Positions 10,384-21,804 of a stretch of 23,391 bases of DNA are shown in pieces; positions within the stretch are counted from its first letter, which is position 1, and the number at the start of each line of letters is the position of its first letter. Both the position numbers and the translations under genes were made by a program. The notes under the pieces are model-generated. The model was not told where the DNA came from, made no database searches, and saw nothing but the letters and a program-made list of their open reading frames with translations. The stretch lies in the NCBI GenBank assembly GCA_002348045.1, contig DDYO01000243.1, positions 13,299 to 36,689 on the forward strand. The letters run 5' to 3'. Origin of the DNA: Anaerolineales bacterium UBA2232 (GTDB taxonomy: Bacteria > Chloroflexota > Anaerolineae > UBA2200).

Positions 10384-11163
10384 GTGAGTCTCATGGGGAA
10401 GCGAGTTGCGGTTCTAGCCGAACAAGATTACGAAGACCTGGAGTTGTGGTACCCATTGCTCAGATTGCGTGGGGAAGGCGCCAGTGTAATCGTCGTTGGC
10501 ACGGGCAGTGCGGCGACCTACACGAGCAAGTACGGCTATCCCGTCAATGCGGATGTCGCCGCCGAGCAGGTGGATGCCAAAGACGTTGATGCGGTGGTCG
10601 TCCCTGGAGGCTATGCCCCGGACAAACTCCGTCGCTACCCTGCAGTCCTCAACCTAGTCCGCCAAGTCTTTGAACAGGGCAAGTTGGTAGCCTTCATCTG
10701 CCATGGCGGCTGGGTCCCCATCTCGGCCGGTATCGTAAAGGGGCGACGGCTGACATCGGTCTCGGCCATCAAAGATGACCTGGTCAACGCGGGGGCAACC
10801 TGGGTAGACGAAGAGGTGGTACAAGATGGCAACATGATTACCTCCAGACGCCCACCTGACCTGCCGGCCTTCTCTGACGCTATCGTTGCGTATCTGCAAG
10901 GGTCCGAAGCGAGTATCCTGGACCGGGTCACCTCCAAAACCGGCGCCCTGGAAGCACTGCGCATGGCTATCCACGCTGAGGAAGCAGCCAGTCGATTCTA
11001 TTCCATGGCTATGGAGAAGACCAGGGATCCCGAGGCGAAGCATGTCTTTAACGATCTCGCCAAGGAGGAGGAGCGTCATCGCTCCATCGTTCAGGATGAG
11101 TACAATCGCCTTACAATGAACCCGGAATGGGATCGCTACAGTATCTGGCGAGAAGTGATGTAG
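10384..11163 (+). CDS. PfpI/DJ-1-family protein fused to a ferritin-like half-domain
   Basis: This 259-residue protein joins two parts. Residues 5-175 are a PfpI/DJ-1 domain with YEDLELWYPLLRLRGEG, the nucleophile elbow FICHGGW (C106) and the typical segment SAIKDDLVNAGATWVDEEVV. Relatives act as stress proteins, described as proteases, deglycases or chaperones. Residues about 187-245 are a two-helix ferritin/rubrerythrin-like hairpin with a Glu on helix A (AIHAEEAASRFYS) and ExxH on helix B (KEEERH), followed by an NPEW segment. One hairpin has only half the ligands of a diiron site, so it would need to pair with another copy. The GTG start has AAGGAGG at 10372-10378. It is the first gene of the plus-strand island. 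The fusion is read directly from sequence; its joint function is unknown. Confidence 0.88.
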   Translation: MSLMGKRVAVLAEQDYEDLELWYPLLRLRGEGASVIVVGTGSAATYTSKYGYPVNADVAAEQVDAKDVDAVVVPGGYAPDKLRRYPAVLNLVRQVFEQGKLVAFICHGGWVPISAGIVKGRRLTSVSAIKDDLVNAGATWVDEEVVQDGNMITSRRPPDLPAFSDAIVAYLQGSEASILDRVTSKTGALEALRMAIHAEEAASRFYSMAMEKTRDPEAKHVFNDLAKEEERHRSIVQDEYNRLTMNPEWDRYSIWREVM

Positions 11164-12488: not shown

Positions 12489-12587
12489 TCTGTTCGGGCG
12501 GGTGTGTTGGGGAGAAGGCTCTCGGTTCGACCGCACTCCGCCAGCCAGCACGATTGGGGCAAGTGTTTCTGGGAGGATTACCTAACT

Positions 12588-14594
12588 ATGGACAAGCACA
12601 TTTCTGAATTGCCCGAGGCTTGGCAGCTGGCCATACGTCGCGAAGAAGAGTCGTACAACTACTATCGGCGTATGGAACAGAGTACACCTGACGCCAGCCT
12701 GAAGACTCTGTTCCAGACCCTGGCCGAACAAGAGGCGAAACACCGGCAGCTCCTGGAAGCCGAGTATCGGCGCCTGTTCGAGACAGACATTGAGGAAAGC
12801 CGCGGACGGTCAGGCACTTTCGAGCACGTCGCCAAGGCCAAGGTACCCCCTCTGGTCTCATGGCATGAATGGGACGATGAGGCCTTTCGTCTGGCCAAGG
12901 AACTCGACGTGCCTGTCCTGTTGAGCATCAGCGCGGTGTGGTGCCACTGGTGTCATGTCATGGACCGTACAACGTTCTCGGACCCCGAAGTGGCAGCATT
13001 GCTGGATGCCCACTTTGTCGCCATACGCGTGGATAACGACAAACGCCCAGACGTTAACGCACGGTACAACATGGGCGGCTGGCCGACGGTAGCCTTCCTG
13101 ACGCCTGAAGGCGAGATCCTCACCGGCGGCACCTACATGACGCCTTCTGCCTTTAAAGATGTCTTGCGACGGGTGAGTGAGTACTATCGGGACAACCGGA
13201 CGACCATCCAGCAGCGTCTGACTGACACTCGTGAGCAGCGCAAAGCGATGCTTGCTTGGCAGCCACCGAGCTCCAGAGAGGTGAGCCCAAACACTTCTGA
13301 ACAGATCTACCAATCGGTCAGCCAAGAGTACGATAGTCAGTACGGGGGGTTTGGGCAGGACCAAAAGTTCCCACAGGTGGACGCCATCGAGCTCGCCATG
13401 GCCCGATACCACCGCACAGGCGATCTCGCGGCACTGGAGATTGCAGTAAGCACCCTCAAGGCCATGTGTACAGGCGGCCTCTATGATTCCGAGATGGGCG
13501 GCTTCTTCCGCTACTCCACCACCCGCGATTGGACAGTACCACACTTTGAGAAGATGCTGGAGGACAATGCACGCTTGCTCTCGGCGTGCATGCACGCTTA
13601 CCAGCTCACGCGGCTCACGACCTTTCGTGATGCCGCCAGCGGCGTCGTAGACTATGTCAGTCTTACTCTCTACGATCGCCCCCGTGGATACTTCTACGGA
13701 AGTCAGGACGCCGATGAACGGTACTATAGCCTACCCAAGGCCGAACGTCTCACCATGACCGCCCCATTCGTCGACAAGGTAGCTTACACCTCTTGGAACG
13801 CCATGATGGCCTCGGCCCACCTGGATGCATGGCTGCTGTTGGAGAGACCCGATCTTGCCCAGACCGCCTTAGGTGCGTTGGAGTTTCTGTGGCAGCACTG
13901 TTGGACCCCCGATCAAGGTATGTGTCACTATTGGGACGGCGAAGCGCATGTGCCAGGATTGCTGACTGACCAGGTTTGGATGGTCAATGCCCTTTTGGAC
14001 GCGTATGAGTACAGCGGCGCCTGGGAGCACGTTGAGCGGGCAGAGAAGGTAATGCGCTGGGCGCACGCCGCGCTTTCGACGCCCTTGGGACACTTTCGCG
14101 ATAGACCGTCAACTCCGGATCTCGGATTGCTGAACCAGGCCGATACTCCCATCGCCGAGAACGCCGTAGCGGCAACCGCCCTGATCCGTTTGTCACGGCT
14201 GACCGGACATGAGGAGTATCTCCAGTGGGCGCGCAGTGTTTTGGCAGCTTTTGCCGAGAGCTACAGCCGTTATGGTCTCTTTGCCTCGGCATACGCATTG
14301 GCTGTGGATAGACTACTGCACGACCCATTGCGGGTGGTCGTCGTTGGCAGCGCGGACGACCCAGTGACCCTGCAGTTGCTCAGGGCTGCCCGTGAGCCCT
14401 ACTCGCCGGACCGAATGCTGGTGACCGTTGATCCCACCTGGGAACCGGATAGGCTGCAGGCCCTCGGCTATCCTGCCGAACCTGCGCCACGAGCCTACGC
14501 GTGCTGGGCACAAACCTGTGCCGAGCCCGTGTCCGAGTCTTCGGAGTTGGTTGATGTGCTCCAGAGTCTGCGCCAACAGGAACGCCAGCCATGA
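12588..14594 (+). CDS. Ferritin-like half-domain fused to DUF255/YyaL thioredoxin-fold protein
   Basis: This is a 668-residue fusion. Residues about 5-65 form a ferritin-like two-helix hairpin with Glu residues on helix A (AIRREEESYNYYRRM) and ExxH on helix B (LAEQEAKHRQLLEAEY). Residues about 85-200 are the thioredoxin-fold DUF255 domain with the C119-H-W-C122 centre in VWCHWCHVMDRTTF. The rest is an (alpha/alpha)6-barrel-like region with GGFFRYSTTRDWTVPHFEKM, GSQDADE and SWNAMMASAHLDA, as in YyaL and SPATA20. The usual N-terminal NPVDWYPW-like segment of DUF255 proteins is reduced to LVSWHEWDDEAF. The ATG at 12588 has GGAGG 11 nt upstream; the frame is open from 12504, but without family resemblance. 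The family's reaction is not established; a thiol-disulfide role is inferred from CHWC. Its stop overlaps the next gene (ATGA). Confidence 0.88.
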   Translation: MDKHISELPEAWQLAIRREEESYNYYRRMEQSTPDASLKTLFQTLAEQEAKHRQLLEAEYRRLFETDIEESRGRSGTFEHVAKAKVPPLVSWHEWDDEAFRLAKELDVPVLLSISAVWCHWCHVMDRTTFSDPEVAALLDAHFVAIRVDNDKRPDVNARYNMGGWPTVAFLTPEGEILTGGTYMTPSAFKDVLRRVSEYYRDNRTTIQQRLTDTREQRKAMLAWQPPSSREVSPNTSEQIYQSVSQEYDSQYGGFGQDQKFPQVDAIELAMARYHRTGDLAALEIAVSTLKAMCTGGLYDSEMGGFFRYSTTRDWTVPHFEKMLEDNARLLSACMHAYQLTRLTTFRDAASGVVDYVSLTLYDRPRGYFYGSQDADERYYSLPKAERLTMTAPFVDKVAYTSWNAMMASAHLDAWLLLERPDLAQTALGALEFLWQHCWTPDQGMCHYWDGEAHVPGLLTDQVWMVNALLDAYEYSGAWEHVERAEKVMRWAHAALSTPLGHFRDRPSTPDLGLLNQADTPIAENAVAATALIRLSRLTGHEEYLQWARSVLAAFAESYSRYGLFASAYALAVDRLLHDPLRVVVVGSADDPVTLQLLRAAREPYSPDRMLVTVDPTWEPDRLQALGYPAEPAPRAYACWAQTCAEPVSESSELVDVLQSLRQQERQP

Positions 14595-16060: not shown

Positions 16061-17416
16061 ATGGCAACCAACAAGAAACGGCTCGTTGTCATAGGAGCTG
16101 TGGCTGCTGGGACAAGCGCAGCAGCCAAGGCCAAGCGAACGGACCCGGACATAGATGTGGTGCTGTTGGAGCGAGACCAGGACATCTCCTATGGCGCCTG
16201 CGGGCTTCCTTACCTCATCTCCGGTGTCATACCCGAGGCTGAGGCACTCATCGCCCGCACGCCAGAGCAGTTTCGCAAGGCAGGCATCGACGTGCGGACC
16301 TCTCACGAGGTGCTTTCCATCGATACGGAGAATAGAAAGGTACTGGTGGCTGACCTGCCAGCCGCTCGAGACTATACGCTCCCCTTCGACCAGTTGGTCA
16401 TCGCCACTGGGGCGACGTCATTCCGCCCTCCGGTTCCAGGCCTGGACCTCCCGGGCGTCTTTGCTCTTCGTACTTTGTCCGAGGGACTGGCGCTGCGCCA
16501 GGCCATTGCCGCCAACCGGCCCCACAACACTGTGATCGTGGGCGGTGGCTACATCGGCCTGGAGATGGCGGAGGCGTTTCGCGCCCTTGATTTGCCCGTG
16601 ACCATCGTCGAGATGGCTCCGCAACTCATGGTCAATCTCGACGAGGATATGAGCGCCCTGCTCCTACCCGAGGTGCAGCGCCAAGGGGTGCGCGTGTTGC
16701 TGAACGATGGGCTCGTCCGCCTCGAGGGCAATGGGCGAGTCGAGAAGGTCATCACCCAACACGGCGAGGTGCCAGCCGACCTGGTGTTGGTAGCCATCGG
16801 CGTGCGGCCCAATACCAAGCTCGCTGAGCAGGCTGGCCTTGAGCTGGGCGCGGGAAGAGCCATCGCCGTGGACGAGTTTCAGCGCACCAGCATGGAAGGG
16901 ATCTATGCCGTCGGCGATTGCGCCGAGGCCCTTCATCAAGTGACCAGGGAAAAAGTGTACATCCCGCTGGGCACGACCGCCAACAAGCAGGGCCGAGTGG
17001 CAGGTGCACACATCGCCGGCATGACGTGTGCATTCCCGGGAGTGGCGGGCACTGCAATCGTCAAGGTGTTTGACCTGCAGGTAGCGCGCACCGGACTAAC
17101 GCATAAGGAAGCTGTCGCCAAGGGCTTCCCAACAGAGGCCGTGACCATCCAAACCACCGACCACGCTGGCTACTACCCAGGCGCCAAGCCGCTCCATGTC
17201 AAACTGGTCATGGACCGCAGCACCAGGCGGCTGCTGGGGGCCCAGATGGTTGGAGGAGGCGGCGCGGAGAAACGGATTGATGTGGTCGCCGCGGCTCTCT
17301 ATGCGAGAATGACCGTGGATGACCTGGCGAGCGTCGACTACGGATACGCTCCTCCTTATGCTTCCGTCTGGGATGCCACTCTGGTGGCCGCTAACGTCGC
17401 CGGTCGTTGCAAGTAG
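16061..17416 (+). CDS. CoA-disulfide reductase / NADH oxidase-family flavoprotein
   Basis: This 451-residue FAD- and NAD(P)H-binding protein belongs to the single-cysteine disulfide reductase group. The FAD loop is VVIGAVAAGTSAAAKAK. The redox-active C47 sits in DISYGACGLPYL, where CoA-disulfide reductase has its Cys43. The second nucleotide loop is VIVGGGYIGLEMAEAF, and GIYAVGDCAE contacts FAD. The C-terminal dimerisation domain has VDYGYAPPYASVWD with the tyrosines typical of CoA-disulfide reductase. Relatives reduce CoA disulfide, persulfides or oxygen. No C-terminal rhodanese domain is present. GAGGAGG precedes the ATG. By context it may reduce low-molecular-weight disulfides, or serve as NADH entry to the Rieske and ferritin-like proteins; the sequence cannot separate these. 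Confidence 0.88.
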   Translation: MATNKKRLVVIGAVAAGTSAAAKAKRTDPDIDVVLLERDQDISYGACGLPYLISGVIPEAEALIARTPEQFRKAGIDVRTSHEVLSIDTENRKVLVADLPAARDYTLPFDQLVIATGATSFRPPVPGLDLPGVFALRTLSEGLALRQAIAANRPHNTVIVGGGYIGLEMAEAFRALDLPVTIVEMAPQLMVNLDEDMSALLLPEVQRQGVRVLLNDGLVRLEGNGRVEKVITQHGEVPADLVLVAIGVRPNTKLAEQAGLELGAGRAIAVDEFQRTSMEGIYAVGDCAEALHQVTREKVYIPLGTTANKQGRVAGAHIAGMTCAFPGVAGTAIVKVFDLQVARTGLTHKEAVAKGFPTEAVTIQTTDHAGYYPGAKPLHVKLVMDRSTRRLLGAQMVGGGGAEKRIDVVAAALYARMTVDDLASVDYGYAPPYASVWDATLVAANVAGRCK

Positions 17417-17551: not shown

Positions 17552-19294
17552 ATGAGCACAAACGAGCTGACAGTGATGATTGCGGGGGAAGCTGGGCAGG
17601 GTGTCGAGTCCACCGGCCGCGGCTTTGTAAGAGCCATTGTCCGCGGCGGGTTGCACGTCTTTGGAGTGCAGGACTACTACTCGCGGATTCGAGGCGGACA
17701 TAACTTTTACCAAGTCCGCATTTCTGAGAACGCGCTGCATTCCCACGACGAGCGGGTACACCTGTTGTTAGCCATGAACGCAGCTGTTATCGATCGCCAT
17801 CTCGATGAAATCGTCCCCGATGGCGGCGTGATCTATGACTCCGCCCTGGATGTGGATGAAGAGTCTTTGACCGCTCGCTCTCTGCATGCCTTTCCGATGC
17901 CTCTAGAGCAGATCGCTCTGGCCGAGGGTGGTAGCAAGATCATGAGCAACACAGCGGCCATAGCGGCAGCCGCTGGCGTCATGGGCTTTGGCCAGGAATC
18001 CATTGACAGCGTTATCGGCGACAATTTCAAGAAAAAGGGCGCACAGGTCGTGGATGCCAACCTCAAGGTAGCACGGACGGCTTACCAGTATGCTGTGGAC
18101 AAATACGCGGCGCTGTTTCCCTTCAAGGCCCAGGTCCGCACGGCACCTACGAGAATGGTCATCCCCAGTAACGACGCGCTTGCCCTTGGAGCAGCTTTGG
18201 CGGGGTGCAAGTTTGTCGCCGGGTACCCCATGACGCCCACGACCTCCATTCTGGAATGGATGGCCGCCCGCAGCCAGGACTATGGCATCGTCCTCAAGCA
18301 TGCCGAGGATGAGATCGCGGCGATGAACATGGTGATTGGCGCTGGGCACATGGGGGTGCGCGCAATGACGGCGACATCCGGCGGCGGTTTTTCCTTGATG
18401 GTCGAGGCCCTGGGACTGGCTGGAATGACCGAGACCCCCGTAGTGATCGTCCTGGGCCAGCGCCCTGGACCCTCCACAGGCCTGGCGACGCGTCACGAGC
18501 AAGGGGACCTGCTGTTCGCCCTCTACGCTTCGCAGGGAGAGTTTCCCCGGATTGTCTTGGCGCCTGGCACCGTCGAACAATGCTTTGAAGCCGGGTGGCG
18601 CTCTTTCAACTTGGCGGAAAAGTACCAGTGTCCGGTCATCATCATCACCGACACCTTTCTGGTGCATTCTCTCCGAGACCTGGAAATGGACGCCCTGGAC
18701 CTGAATGTGCCCATCGAGCGAGGAGACCTTCTCACCGATGCTCAACTGGACAAACTGAACGAGCGTTACAAGAGACATGCTTTCACCGACTCTGGAGTGT
18801 CTCCGCGTGCCATTCCCGGACATCCTCGGGCTGTGTACGCCGTCACCAGCGACGAGCATGACGAGTACGGCCAGATCAGTGAAGAGGCGTCCAACCGTAC
18901 GCAGATGATGGACAAGCGCATGCGCAAGTTGGAAGCGGCTGGTGCGGAAATGCGGGGCCCGATACACTACGGTGTCCCAGATGCCGATCTGACCTTTGTC
19001 GTGTGGGGCTCCGCCGTTGCCCCCCTCCGAAGTGCGGTGGATATCCTCAACGCCAATGGGCAATCCGCCGAGTTGTACCAGATCGTCGATATCTGGCCTT
19101 TCCCCTCGGAGTTGATCGCCGCAGCCCTCAAGGATGCCAAGAAACTCGTCTGTGTAGAACAGAACTACACCGGACAGATGGCAACCCTTTTGCGTGCCTA
19201 CGCCAACGTCCATGTGGATGGCCTCATCACCAAGTACGATGGCCGACCCATGTCCCCAGAGTATATCCTGAGACGTTTGAAGGAGGTAGCGTAG
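17552..19294 (+). CDS. 2-oxoacid:acceptor oxidoreductase, fused gamma-alpha subunit
   Basis: This 580-residue protein combines the gamma domain (about 1-185) with the alpha/pyrimidine domain (about 195-400) and the following transketolase C-terminal-like region. The gamma domain shows MIAGEAGQGVESTGRGFVRA and DYYSRIRGGHNFYQVRI. The alpha domain shows GCKFVAGYPMTPTTSILEWM, the conserved E in KHAEDEIAAMNMVIGAGHMG, and TATSGGGFSLMVEALGLAG. With the beta subunit it oxidises a 2-oxoacid (2-oxoglutarate, pyruvate or branched-chain) to acyl-CoA with reduced ferredoxin, or runs in reverse. The gamma-alpha plus beta layout is common in 2-oxoglutarate-type (KorAB) enzymes, but the substrate is not proven. 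The gene ends 2 bp before the beta subunit. Confidence 0.92.
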   Translation: MSTNELTVMIAGEAGQGVESTGRGFVRAIVRGGLHVFGVQDYYSRIRGGHNFYQVRISENALHSHDERVHLLLAMNAAVIDRHLDEIVPDGGVIYDSALDVDEESLTARSLHAFPMPLEQIALAEGGSKIMSNTAAIAAAAGVMGFGQESIDSVIGDNFKKKGAQVVDANLKVARTAYQYAVDKYAALFPFKAQVRTAPTRMVIPSNDALALGAALAGCKFVAGYPMTPTTSILEWMAARSQDYGIVLKHAEDEIAAMNMVIGAGHMGVRAMTATSGGGFSLMVEALGLAGMTETPVVIVLGQRPGPSTGLATRHEQGDLLFALYASQGEFPRIVLAPGTVEQCFEAGWRSFNLAEKYQCPVIIITDTFLVHSLRDLEMDALDLNVPIERGDLLTDAQLDKLNERYKRHAFTDSGVSPRAIPGHPRAVYAVTSDEHDEYGQISEEASNRTQMMDKRMRKLEAAGAEMRGPIHYGVPDADLTFVVWGSAVAPLRSAVDILNANGQSAELYQIVDIWPFPSELIAAALKDAKKLVCVEQNYTGQMATLLRAYANVHVDGLITKYDGRPMSPEYILRRLKEVA

Positions 19295-19296
19295 CC

Positions 19297-20169
19297 ATGG
19301 TAGACATCAAGGACTATGCCAGTCCAGTGCGCCCGACCTGGTGCACCGGATGCGGTAACTTTGGCATCTGGAACGCCCTGAAGAAAGCGCTGGCAGACGC
19401 CAGCGTGGCGCCCCATCAGGTCATGCTCGTCAGCGGCGTCGGATGTGGATCCAAACTGCCCGACTATACCACTGCCAACGGCTACATGAGCTTGCACGGT
19501 CGCACCCTTGCTGTCGCCAATGGCGTGCGCCTGGCGAACCATGAGCTCAAGGTCATTTGTACCCACGGGGATGGCGATGGCTACGGCGAGGGCGGCAACC
19601 ACTTTGTCCACACCGTCCGGCGCAACATCGGCCTTGTCGACATTGTGCAAAACAACCGCGTCTATGGCCTGACCAAAGGCCAGTACTCGCCAACGAGCCC
19701 CGCCGGGTTTGTCAGCAAGACCTCACCGCGGGGAGCACCCGAGCTAACCTTTAATCCCCTGGCGGTCGCCTTGGCGGCAGGAGGCACCTTCATCTCCCGT
19801 GGTTGGTCTGGCGATATCGAACATCTCTCATGGCTCATTCAGGAGGCCTTACAGCACCGCGGATACGCCCTTATTGACGTCCTGCAGCCCTGCGTGACCT
19901 TCAACCGCATGTACTCCTATGATTGGCTGCGTCCCAAGGTGTACAAGGTGCAGGATGAACCCGGCTATGACCCCAACAATATAGAGAAGGCATTTGTCAA
20001 AACCCTGGAATACGGCGAGCGCATTCCCATCGGCATCCTCTACCGTACCGAGGACAAACCAGCCTATGAGGAACAGGAACCCGCCCTTCAGGTCGGCGCT
20101 CTGGTCAACCAGCCCTTGCGGATCAAACCGCTGGAGCAGTATGAAGCTCTGAAACAAGATTACGTGTAA
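19297..20169 (+). CDS. 2-oxoacid:acceptor oxidoreductase, beta subunit (TPP- and Fe-S-binding)
   Basis: This 290-residue beta subunit carries thiamine diphosphate and one [4Fe-4S] cluster. C16 and C19 lie in TWCTGCGNFGIW, and later cysteines occur in SGVGCGSKLPDY and LQPCVTFN. The TPP motif is GDGDGYGEGGNHFVHTVRRN, followed by VQNNRVYGLTKGQYSPTSP. Length is normal for KorB-type subunits. The ATG at 19297 follows AAGGAGG (about 19279-19285). The frame is open further upstream, but that overlaps the alpha subunit out of frame. No delta (2x[4Fe-4S] ferredoxin) subunit gene is adjacent, so electrons go to a free ferredoxin or another carrier. The selenoglutaredoxin gene starts 14 bp later. Confidence 0.92.
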   Translation: MVDIKDYASPVRPTWCTGCGNFGIWNALKKALADASVAPHQVMLVSGVGCGSKLPDYTTANGYMSLHGRTLAVANGVRLANHELKVICTHGDGDGYGEGGNHFVHTVRRNIGLVDIVQNNRVYGLTKGQYSPTSPAGFVSKTSPRGAPELTFNPLAVALAAGGTFISRGWSGDIEHLSWLIQEALQHRGYALIDVLQPCVTFNRMYSYDWLRPKVYKVQDEPGYDPNNIEKAFVKTLEYGERIPIGILYRTEDKPAYEEQEPALQVGALVNQPLRIKPLEQYEALKQDYV

Positions 20170-20183
20170 TCCGGGAGGAACCC

Positions 20184-20681
20184 ATGGACGTAGCTGTCTA
20201 TTCCACCAAAACCTGACCCTGGTGCCATCACGCGAAAGAGTTCCTTTCGCAGCGCGGCATACCCTATCAGGAATTTGACGTTAGCCGAGATCAGGAAGCC
20301 GCCACGCGGATGATCCGCCTGTCTGGTCAGTCTGGCGTGCCAGTGATCACCATTGACGACCAGGTCGTGGTAGGTTTCGACCGCAAGCGTATCGAAGCTC
20401 TTCTGGTCAAGCCAGCCGATGCCCCTCGCTTGGGGGCTGTGGTCGCTGATGCGGCTGGCCGTACCCAGCGGCCTGGCGCCTTCGTCGGGCGTGTCCTCGC
20501 AGGATCGCCGGCAGAGCGAGCCGGTCTTCAAGCAAAAGATGTCATCATCGAGCTGAACGGTAAGGCTATCGAAGACGCCACCGATTTGGAGAACGTTCTG
20601 ACTAGCCTCCGGCCAGGTGACCGCCCGATGCTCACCTTGATGCGTGGTGGTCAGCGCAGGCAGTTTGAGCTGCCGCTCTAG
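20184..20681 (+). CDS. Selenocysteine glutaredoxin fused to a PDZ domain
   Basis: This is a 165-residue protein if the in-frame TGA at 20214-20216 is read as selenocysteine. Residues 1-75 are a glutaredoxin: VAVYSTKT, then U11-P-W-C14 as the active site, HHAKEFLSQRGIPYQEFDV, cis-proline P53 in SGVPVITIDDQVVVGFD, and a final helix. Residues about 82-163 are a PDZ domain with GRVLAGSPAERAGLQAKDVI. The ATG at 20184 has GGGAGGA 5-6 nt upstream, and the frame stays open and conserved on both sides of the TGA. UGA ends normal genes nearby, so the code is standard. A SECIS-type hairpin follows. A gene finder would either start at the internal ATG 20310, losing the catalytic site, or miss it. A base error of TGC/TGT to TGA is the main alternative. 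The likely role is thiol/selenol reduction of a partner held by the PDZ domain. Confidence 0.85.
20223..20259 (+). promoter_or_regulatory. Putative bacterial SECIS element
   Basis: GCGAAAG (20232-20238) pairs perfectly with CTTTCGC (20244-20250) around an AGTTC loop. A lower stem TGCC/GGCA (20223-20226, 20256-20259) is set off by a symmetric 5x5 internal loop. The apical loop begins 22 nt after the TGA, has G in its second position, and the upper stem is 7 bp. These values fall within the loose consensus for bacterial SECIS elements, which lie inside the coding region just after the UGA and bind SelB. Confidence 0.7.
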
Positions 20682-20722
20682 TACGTGTATCGCAGCAGGA
20701 AATCGAAGGGAGAATGAAAAGA

Positions 20723-21220
20723 ATGTCCACTCAAGACGCCCTCAAGGCATTGGAAGAGGCCAAGTGCCTCGAGCAGGAAGGACAGGCCTTCTACCGCAAG
20801 GCAGCAGAGCAGGCGAAAGATGAAAAGGGTCGGCAGGTCTTTCTCTCGCTGATCGGCGATGAGGTGAACCACGAGCGACTGATTCAGAGGGAGATTGACA
20901 ATCTCACCCGCGAGGGAAAATGGGCGCGCCTGACGGAAGTCAGCCCGGTCAAGTGCGATCTGACCGAGCCCATATTCCCCCAGGGACGCGCGGGACTTCA
21001 GAAGGCGGTCAAAGCCGACACTGGCGAAACCGAAGCATTGTTGGTCGCGCTGGAGATGGAGAATAACAGCTATGACCTATACCGACGCCGCGCCGAGGCC
21101 AGCACCAACCCGCCGGAACGTGCCATGTACGAGTTCCTGGCATCCCAGGAACGCACCCATTTTGACCTGTTGATGGCAAACTACGAGGCTATGGTGAGCC
21201 TGGGCGGTTGGGCAGACTAG
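20723..21220 (+). CDS. Tandem ferritin-like (rubrerythrin-type) protein
   Basis: This 165-residue protein has two E...ExxH hairpins. Copy 1 (about 4-60) has AKCLEQEGQAFYRKAAEQ and IGDEVNHERLIQREI, closing with REGKWARL. Copy 2 (about 105-162) has ALEMENNSYDLYRRRA and ASQERTHFDLLMANY, closing with LGGWAD. Together they form a likely four-helix bundle with a diiron site for peroxide or oxygen chemistry. There is no rubredoxin domain. The linker carries one cysteine in PVKCDLTEPIFP. I chose the ATG at 20723 because AAGGGAG at 20706-20712 is 10 nt away; the upstream in-frame ATG at 20714 is only 1 nt from it. The gene lies 41 bp after the selenoprotein. Confidence 0.85.
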   Translation: MSTQDALKALEEAKCLEQEGQAFYRKAAEQAKDEKGRQVFLSLIGDEVNHERLIQREIDNLTREGKWARLTEVSPVKCDLTEPIFPQGRAGLQKAVKADTGETEALLVALEMENNSYDLYRRRAEASTNPPERAMYEFLASQERTHFDLLMANYEAMVSLGGWAD

Positions 21221-21264
21221 TTCAGCACCCCATCCTCACACAGACAGCATGGAAGGAGAACAAC

Positions 21265-21804
21265 ATGAACAAAGAGACCTGCCAAGTAGCCCTGACAGCA
21301 CTGGAGCTGGCCATGGAGGAGGAACGACAAGGCAACGCGTTCTATTCTCAGGCTGCCGAGCGCGTGCAGGATCCCATGGGTAAGGCGGTATTTCAGGCCC
21401 TGGCAAAGGACGAGATCAAGCATCTTCACCTTCTGCAAGCCCAGCACGAAAAGCTCAGCGCAGACCAGGAGTGGATGGAACTGGATGAGGCCTTGGTATG
21501 CGAACCGAGGACGCCAATCGATATCTATCCTGATAAGCGGGATGCGGCGCTCATGATCCCAGGCGAAGCCTCTGATCTGGATGCCCTAGCGCTAGCTATG
21601 GATCTGGAGCAAAAGGGCTACGATCTCTACGCCAAGGCGGGGGCCGAGACCGACGACCCGGCAGGGAAAAAGGTTTTTGCCTTTCTGGCCAAGCAGGAGA
21701 ATGAACACTATGTCTTCCTGCAAAAGACAAAGGAGTACTTGAGCACCGAAGGTGCCTGGTACTTTGAGGAGCAAGAGTTCCCCATGTTCGATGGGGCCCG
21801 ATAG
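21265..21804 (+). CDS. Tandem ferritin-like (rubrerythrin-type) protein
   Basis: This 179-residue protein is a paralogue of the preceding gene with the same layout. Copy 1 (about 8-65) has LAMEEERQGNAFYSQAAE and LAKDEIKHLHLLQAQ, closing with DQEWMEL. Copy 2 (about 105-165) has AMDLEQKGYDLYAKAGAE and LAKQENEHYVFLQK, closing with TEGAWYFEEQEF. The linker again has one cysteine before a proline-rich stretch (VCEPRTPIDIYP), matching the KCDLTEPIFP segment of its neighbour. The ATG at 21265 follows AAGGAGA; the frame is open from 21208, but that overlaps the previous gene. The likely role is diiron peroxide or oxygen removal, with electrons from another carrier. It may form a hetero-oligomer with its neighbour, which is inference. 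Confidence 0.86.
   Translation: MNKETCQVALTALELAMEEERQGNAFYSQAAERVQDPMGKAVFQALAKDEIKHLHLLQAQHEKLSADQEWMELDEALVCEPRTPIDIYPDKRDAALMIPGEASDLDALALAMDLEQKGYDLYAKAGAETDDPAGKKVFAFLAKQENEHYVFLQKTKEYLSTEGAWYFEEQEFPMFDGAR

Follow-up and report, generated by a model that had tools for sequence, protein, structure and literature searches.

A probable selenocysteine-containing glutaredoxin-PDZ protein in an Anaerolineales genome and its relatives in Chloroflexota

The analysis of a 23,391-nucleotide stretch of DNA from Anaerolineales bacterium UBA2232 (hereafter, the window) suggests that it harbors, on the forward strand at positions 20184-20681, a gene coding for a glutaredoxin-PDZ selenoprotein of 165 residues with selenocysteine (Sec) at residue 11. 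On the basis of the sequence comparisons reported here, we consider it very probable that the UGA at codon 11 is read as Sec and that the product plays a thiol-disulfide redox role. Moreover, the same comparisons support the idea that we are dealing neither with a sequence error nor with a one-off, but with a widespread selenoprotein architecture. The presence of Sec at residue 11 had been proposed in a first-pass annotation of the window, and it is supported by the exchange between TGA and Cys codons in 57 homologues, by a hairpin linked to the TGA, and by the Sec machinery found in relatives.

The reading frame opens with the ATG at 20184, 4 nt downstream of the motif GGGAGGA (20173-20179, forward strand), which we take to be the likely ribosome-binding site; it encounters TGA at codon 11 (20214-20216) and thereafter stays open until the TAG at 20679-20681, the TGA being the sole in-frame stop between the two. 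When TGA is translated as U, the protein reads MDVAVYSTKTUPWCHHAKEF...GVPV...GFD..., and the putative Sec-UGA codon, on the forward strand, takes the place of the first Cys of CPWC, aligning with TGC/TGT in 21 homologues and with TGA in 35 others. With C substituted for U, the Pfam models for glutaredoxin (PF00462, residues 3-62, positions 20190-20369, forward strand) and for the PDZ domain (PDZ_2, PF13180, residues 83-165, positions 20430-20678, forward strand) gave 68.2 bits against a cut-off of 22.9 and 55.5 bits against a cut-off of 27, respectively. The sequence, the frame and these domains thus bear out the original description, in which TGA occupies the first Cys position of the CPWC motif of a glutaredoxin and the frame, intact on both sides, passes from a glutaredoxin into a PDZ domain. 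It had also been stated, citing five genes, that UGA is an ordinary stop of the neighbouring genes and that the code is unchanged. Indeed, TGA closes 7 of the 24 genes marked in the window, including those five (a response regulator, also among the 24, was marked in the wrong frame, its real stop being TAA), and we therefore consider the genetic code of the window to be the usual one. The absence of other in-frame TGA codons from the open reading frames of the window is no evidence, since open reading frames are cut at stops.

A protein search retrieved 446 relatives of the window protein. The alignment of Cys and Sec at residue 11, which the first-pass annotation had recommended as a check, was carried out on loci comprising the best 80 of 447 from genome collections and the 30 best-scoring of a longer list from a sample of 400 genomes belonging to the same phylum as the nearest relative (Chloroflexota), leaving out five loci repeating counted genomes (L084, L086, L096, L102, and L111) and those whose frame fell outside 155-199 residues (e.g., L046, which encodes a glutaredoxin alone yet shares the TGA and the hairpin). 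Among the resulting 57 distinct glutaredoxin-PDZ genes, codon 11 is TGA in 36 (the window included) and TGC/TGT in 21, a ratio that is biased because the loci are the best scorers of longer lists and because the query alignment held Sec-type sequences. In the 400-genome sample, 41 matches spanning both domains were listed at 130 bits or more, in 40 genomes; 32 of them have one TGA, 8 have no stop, and 1 has a TAG. The best 30 of these 41, taken as loci, carry TGA exactly at codon 11 in 25 cases and Cys in 5, the remaining 7 single-TGA matches being counted with the position of their TGA unread. Ten weaker two-domain matches listed from the same sample (70-91 bits) have no stop. In the first-pass annotation, a PDZ fusion beside an oxoacid oxidoreductase and ferritin-like proteins had looked new; the fusion of a glutaredoxin with a PDZ domain is, however, not rare, full-length Cys forms with CxxC accounting for 85 of the best 120 protein matches and single-TGA matches occurring in 32 of the 400 phylum genomes. 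Viral contigs yielded one weak relative and plasmids 196 records, all below 60% identity, two of which cover 80% of the query.

The PDZ domain does not always accompany the TGA form: in a Chloroflexota genome, a glutaredoxin-only gene (L046:8001-8237) has its TGA at this codon too, followed by a hairpin of 8 bp in the same position. Other glutaredoxin-only matches in the 400-genome sample contain one or two TGA (two each in G205:C126 and G043:C454), some of which may be terminal stops.

Downstream of the UGA, the mRNA can fold at 20232-20250 (forward strand) into a bSECIS-like stem-loop, GCGAAAG-AGUUC-CUUUCGC, with a free energy of -7.9 kcal/mol, in which a 7-bp stem (20232-20238 with 20244-20250) closes the loop AGUUC (20239-20243); the stem begins 15 nt 3' of the UGA and the loop after 22 nt. 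The bacterial SECIS model, as given in a passage of PMC13188914, has a loop of 3-9 nt, a stem of 4-16 bp, a G in the first two loop positions, a distance from the UGA of 16-37 nt, and a minimum free energy of -7.5 kcal/mol or lower, and the window hairpin falls within every one of these limits (5-nt loop, 7 bp, AG, 22 nt, and -7.9 kcal/mol). Hairpin energy alone was rejected as proof: among the 699 TGA triplets of the window, as many as 34 are followed by a bSECIS-like hairpin at -7.5 kcal/mol or better, the one at codon 11 ranking 30th by energy. Against dinucleotide shuffles, the z of the fold depended on the stretch chosen, its extremes being -0.65 for 42 nt and -3.24 for 47 nt. No Rfam entry was found in the window at gathering scores, nor were any tRNA genes.

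It is the comparison with relatives that raises the hairpin above chance. In a fixed register, all seven stem pairs are present in 29 of the 36 TGA genes and six in the other 7, as opposed to none of the 21 Cys genes with seven pairs and one with six (Fisher P for 7/7 pairs = 6e-10, kinship being ignored). In the 28 TGA rows with a 5-nt loop, 96.9% of the cells pair, versus at most 63.8% in slid versions; column pair 20-36 is occupied by CG in 12 rows, UA in 10, and UG in 1, with 5 unpaired, and column pair 23-33 by AU in 25, GC in 2, and GU in 1. For these rows, three measures exceed every one of 500 shuffles, namely the cells paired, the cells doubly changed, and the covariation score; two others do not, namely the count of doubly changed pairs (2, reached by 48 of 500 shuffles) and that of further pair types (5, reached by 112 of 500). 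The seven genes with a 4-nt loop, four of which are labelled Thermomicrobiales, pair in 100% of the cells and exhibit one UA/GC exchange, in two genes, with double-change pairs and further pair types each reached by 263 of 500 shuffles. In the Cys rows, 51.0% of the cells pair, with no excess over shuffles.

The hairpin was also compared with what synonymous codons would give, using a codon table slightly tainted by the response regulator entered in the wrong frame. For the window, 5000 draws gave P values of 0.011 by pairs and 0.005 by energy, and, among the 36 TGA genes, P fell below 0.05 for 30 when pairs were counted and for 33 when energy was used. Synonymous codons alone could yield an equally good hairpin in L014 (P 0.12 by pairs and 0.33 by energy) and in L002 (0.185 and 0.29), the latter being closely related to the window and sharing its operon. 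L085 is weak on both, by energy narrowly (P 0.064), and L088, L100, and L025 are weak by pairs.

In bacterial Sec insertion, SelB binds a hairpin and delivers Sec-tRNA to the UGA. If this established mechanism also operates here, the stem-loop at 20232-20250 probably directs Sec insertion at the UGA at 20214-20216, with SelB binding the hairpin and bringing Sec-tRNA to that codon. The machinery was looked for in the genomes of 15 relatives, 14 of which carry the TGA form of the fusion gene, and the remaining one (L046) the TGA glutaredoxin-only gene. SelA scored over its cut-off in 14 of the 15 and is split over two contigs in the fifteenth; SelD did so in 13, in 12 of which it has an in-frame TGA of its own; and SelB in 12, with apparent fragments in two more. 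In the 1.1-Mb genome G025, neither SelB nor SelD was found. A tRNA-Sec scoring at least 60 bits is present in 10 of the 15 and was not found at that score in the other 5, the 60-bit line being our own choice, as ordinary tRNAs also pass the family cut-off of 47. Throughout the phylum sample, SelB is over its cut-off in 307 of the 400 genomes; among the 32 genomes with a TGA match, a strong SelB (best E 2.4e-88 or lower) occurs in 28, the exceptions being G017, G025, G033, and G059. We rejected this co-occurrence as proof and regard it as a consistency check, not as an association, because SelB is widespread in the phylum anyway.

As far as the structure of the protein is concerned, the AlphaFold2 model, built on 49 aligned sequences and including the PDZ domain, has a mean pLDDT of 90.7 and a pTM of 0.60. 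The 50 Foldseek matches listed for it are HtrA/DegP-type chains, one being the lone PDZ domain 7l71 (rmsd 2.0 A), with no glutaredoxin chain among these 50; the closest solved relative by sequence is glutaredoxin 7c10 (E 1.6e-24). The best NCBIfam match of the window protein is the YruB family (TIGR02196, 92.2 against a cut-off of 88.55), and the Uxx-star subfamily model NF041212 is also passed (68.5 against 66). Among three relatives scanned with the latter, L001 lies on the cut-off (66.0), while L026 (62.0) and L112 (53.8) lie below it, so that NF041212 leaves the fusion family as a whole uncovered. Scores below the cut-off were obtained by the window protein for UXX-star families 1, 2, and 3 (NF041114, NF041211, and NF047338: 45.6, 40.9, and 36.5 against 72, 100, and 97), for the NCBIfam glutaredoxin 3 model (61.1 against 90), for the Trx7/PDZ (seleno)protein NF041199 (33.1 against 300, through the PDZ part only), and for the HtrA/DegP protease TIGR02037 (60.7 against 416.2, again through the PDZ part only), which gives no membership in that protease family. 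It also falls short of the NrdH model TIGR02194 (49.0 against 85.75) and is not a member of that family, although it may work in an NrdH-like way. No NCBIfam model of a whole-length glutaredoxin-PDZ protein appears among the matches listed for the window protein (best 25 of 35), L001, L026 (scanned without its last residues), and L112.

The gene belongs to a cluster on the forward strand. Directly upstream lies the beta subunit of a 2-oxoacid:acceptor oxidoreductase (KorB, 19291-20169; TIGR02177, 342 bits, cut-off 261.9), preceded by the alpha subunit (KorA, 17552-19294; TIGR03710, 650 bits, cut-off 482.75) and, in the same cluster, by a CoA-disulfide reductase-like flavoprotein (16061-17416; NF007123, 472.1 bits, cut-off 458). 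Directly downstream there is a rubrerythrin-like protein (20714-21220; PF02915), followed by a second one (21208-21804; PF02915). The best 80 of 447 loci include 31 of the glutaredoxin-PDZ type. In 9 of these, a co-oriented KorB precedes the gene and rubrerythrin-like genes follow it; three are Sec loci (L001, L002, and L003) and six are Cys loci (L011, L013, L015, L018, L019, and L020). In L011, L013, and L020, about 1 kb with a nitroreductase-like gene separates KorB from the glutaredoxin gene (the neighbour names Rieske, nitroreductase, FMN reductase, and DUF554 were assigned by eye). The remaining 22 of the 31 loci have no KorB upstream, and the neighbours scanned in six other loci include ClpC-like genes (L004 and L022), MutS (L005), an SMC/RecN-like gene (L014), a spermidine-synthase-like gene (L025), and GMP synthase (L027). 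The operon with KorB and rubrerythrin-like genes is therefore a context found in a part of the family, and does not define it.

The chemistry that we envisage for the predicted U-P-W-C site is that of a disulfide reductase: the selenolate of residue 11 would attack disulfides, and Cys14 would resolve the resulting intermediate, the PDZ domain possibly steering the reductase to, or holding it on, partner proteins. Glutathione synthetase, the one component of the glutathione route examined, is over its cut-off in none of the 15 TGA genomes, with weak matches in six (the missing enzyme may reflect incomplete assemblies), and thioredoxin-reductase matches occur in all 15, over the cut-off in 9. 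In addition, the same glutaredoxin type heads frames of 375-395 residues in 18 of the best 80 of 447 loci, labelled Methanoregula or other Methanomicrobiales, and the only one of these that was scanned (L032:7992-9140) codes for a glutaredoxin fused to a thioredoxin-reductase-like domain. These observations make thioredoxin reductase the likelier electron donor, and we tentatively suggest that it, rather than glutathione, re-reduces the protein. As for the partners, 2-oxoacid oxidoreductases are oxygen-sensitive as a class and rubrerythrin-like proteins point to peroxide; in the window operon, the protein might serve the neighbouring 2-oxoacid oxidoreductase and the rubrerythrin-like proteins, a role that for any given partner appears possible and yet rather doubtful. 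The docking of the PDZ domain on the C-terminus of KorB was considered and found unsupported. The window KorB ends in -QDYV. After removal of three repeats and of L101, which is out of frame, 11 distinct KorBs remain that are followed by a glutaredoxin-PDZ gene, and all of them end in V, L, I, or M; however, so do 22 of the 29 KorBs without such a gene in the downstream stretch examined, and this tail is therefore no sign of docking.

The protein might, on the other hand, be a selenoprotein whose Sec site reduces peroxide or binds metals and does not act as a general disulfide reductase. The rubrerythrin-like neighbours would be in line with a peroxide substrate, and the glutaredoxin domain of the window does pass the cut-off of the Uxx_star subfamily, a family whose Sec, according to a passage of PMC13188914, may bind metals. 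However, the resolving Cys (U-x-x-C) is retained in every TGA form listed, as in disulfide-reducing glutaredoxins, and UXX-star families 1, 2, and 3 remain far below their cut-offs. We consequently regard this alternative as unlikely, although it retains some weight.

A different possibility is that the UGA acts mainly as a stop and that a shorter protein starts at the internal ATG at 20310, its 123 residues comprising an incomplete glutaredoxin domain and the PDZ domain. This ATG does exist, and the mechanical open reading frame and the public record match such a product exactly. The first-pass annotation had anticipated that automated annotation would truncate proteins of this kind, and this is what we observe: the window's own record and 34 others of the best 120 protein matches (of 446) begin past the UGA position at codon 11. 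Gene callers that place the start beyond a stop codon would be expected to produce such records, and some of the 35 may be cut by contig ends; 13 of them bear the source name S1-C subfamily serine protease. Conversely, the short form would lack the first 42 residues and hence the active site, and the conserved hairpin, as well as the residues kept before and just after the UGA in the TGA forms, would be purposeless, so that we judge the internal start to be very improbable. Reading the UGA as Sec accounts for the public records that begin in the middle of the glutaredoxin domain.

Two further explanations can be set aside almost entirely. That the TGA arose by a sequencing error, or by recent nonsense mutation in a Cys codon, is hardly credible, even though a single base separates TGA from TGC and Cys forms are common: the same TGA occurs in 35 other genes from other genomes, and it goes with a hairpin that is absent from the Cys genes and whose pairing is kept through double changes at two pairs. 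An altered code or a suppressor tRNA that would insert Cys or Trp at the UGA, even though the codon stands in place of a Cys, has practically no standing next to the marked window genes that end in TGA, a hairpin that would be unneeded, and the SelA and tRNA-Sec of the relatives.

The distribution of the two forms was examined on a tree of the 57 proteins in which residue 11 was masked. The tree implies 8 Sec/Cys changes versus 17.2 for shuffled labels, 5 of the 8 being forced by starred branches; its bootstrap was not quite settled, and gain and loss of Sec are not distinguishable from it. The window protein clusters with L001, L002, and L003, all Sec (support 99/95). Close Sec/Cys pairs occur on well-supported branches, namely L005 (Cys) with L098 (Sec) and L016 (Cys) with L106 (Sec), the latter being sisters with support 100/93; such pairs amount to a natural experiment on the reasons for which Sec is retained or lost. 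The Cys gene L016, sister of the TGA gene L106, keeps 6 of the 7 SECIS stem pairs (L016:8031-8078), with the loop G replaced by C, and its hairpin may be a fossil SECIS.

Selenoprotein forms of glutaredoxin-like proteins were said from the outset to be known in bacteria, and this agrees with passages of reviews (PMC13188914 and PMC9312934) in which Sec glutaredoxins already figure, alongside a distinct Sec-thioredoxin-PDZ family. The window protein resembles the Sec glutaredoxins (UxxC, PF00462; PMC13188914, in the part concerning them) in its glutaredoxin domain, in the Sec replacing the first Cys, and in the resolving Cys that is kept; in contrast, those are presented in the relevant passages of PMC13188914 and PMC9312934 as small oxidoreductases, with no PDZ domain mentioned there, whereas the window protein has one. 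The NCBIfam models that it passes are likewise single-domain models without PDZ, of 70 positions for Uxx-star NF041212 and of 74 for YruB-family TIGR02196. The joining of a Sec redox domain to a PDZ domain is shared with Trx7/PDZ NF041199 and with a MucD-like CxxC/U protein fused to PDZ that a passage of PMC9402790 reports from marine data; however, these have CxxU and, by name and Pfam entry (PMC9312934, in part), a Thioredoxin_7 fold, whereas the window protein is a U-P-W-C glutaredoxin. The Methanoregula fusion L032 has the same glutaredoxin type (TIGR02196, 89.7 bits), but it is a Cys form with a reductase-like domain instead of PDZ. In the main texts of the open-licence literature searched, no mention of a glutaredoxin-PDZ selenoprotein was found. 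A 2006 survey counted three selenoproteins for Chloroflexota, according to a passage of PMC1794560, and the present analysis would add to this phylum a common selenoprotein architecture for which no family model was found.

We can speculate, albeit with considerable doubt, that these proteins constitute phylum-wide PDZ-guided selenoredoxins, in which Sec would be the usual state in Chloroflexota, repeatedly swapped with Cys, and the PDZ domain would direct the selenolate reductase to selected redox enzymes, which in the window would be the 2-oxoacid:ferredoxin oxidoreductase together with the rubrerythrin-like proteins that guard it; many members would be hidden by gene callers as short fragments, some of them named serine protease. 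If this were true, the protein would provide the first case of a docking domain targeting a selenoenzyme of the glutaredoxin type.

Lastly, rubrerythrin-like modules recur elsewhere in the window. A PfpI/DJ-1 family protein encoded at 10384-11163 carries a C-terminal rubrerythrin-like stretch (PF01965 and PF02915, the latter at residues 190-246), and its full length of 259 residues is matched in L001, L002, and L003. A DUF255/Thioredox_DsbH protein encoded at 12504-14594 has an N-terminal rubrerythrin-like stretch at residues 42-96 (26.1 against 22.8 bits), and, since this protein also carries one, the genes of the cluster with rubrerythrin-like modules are five.
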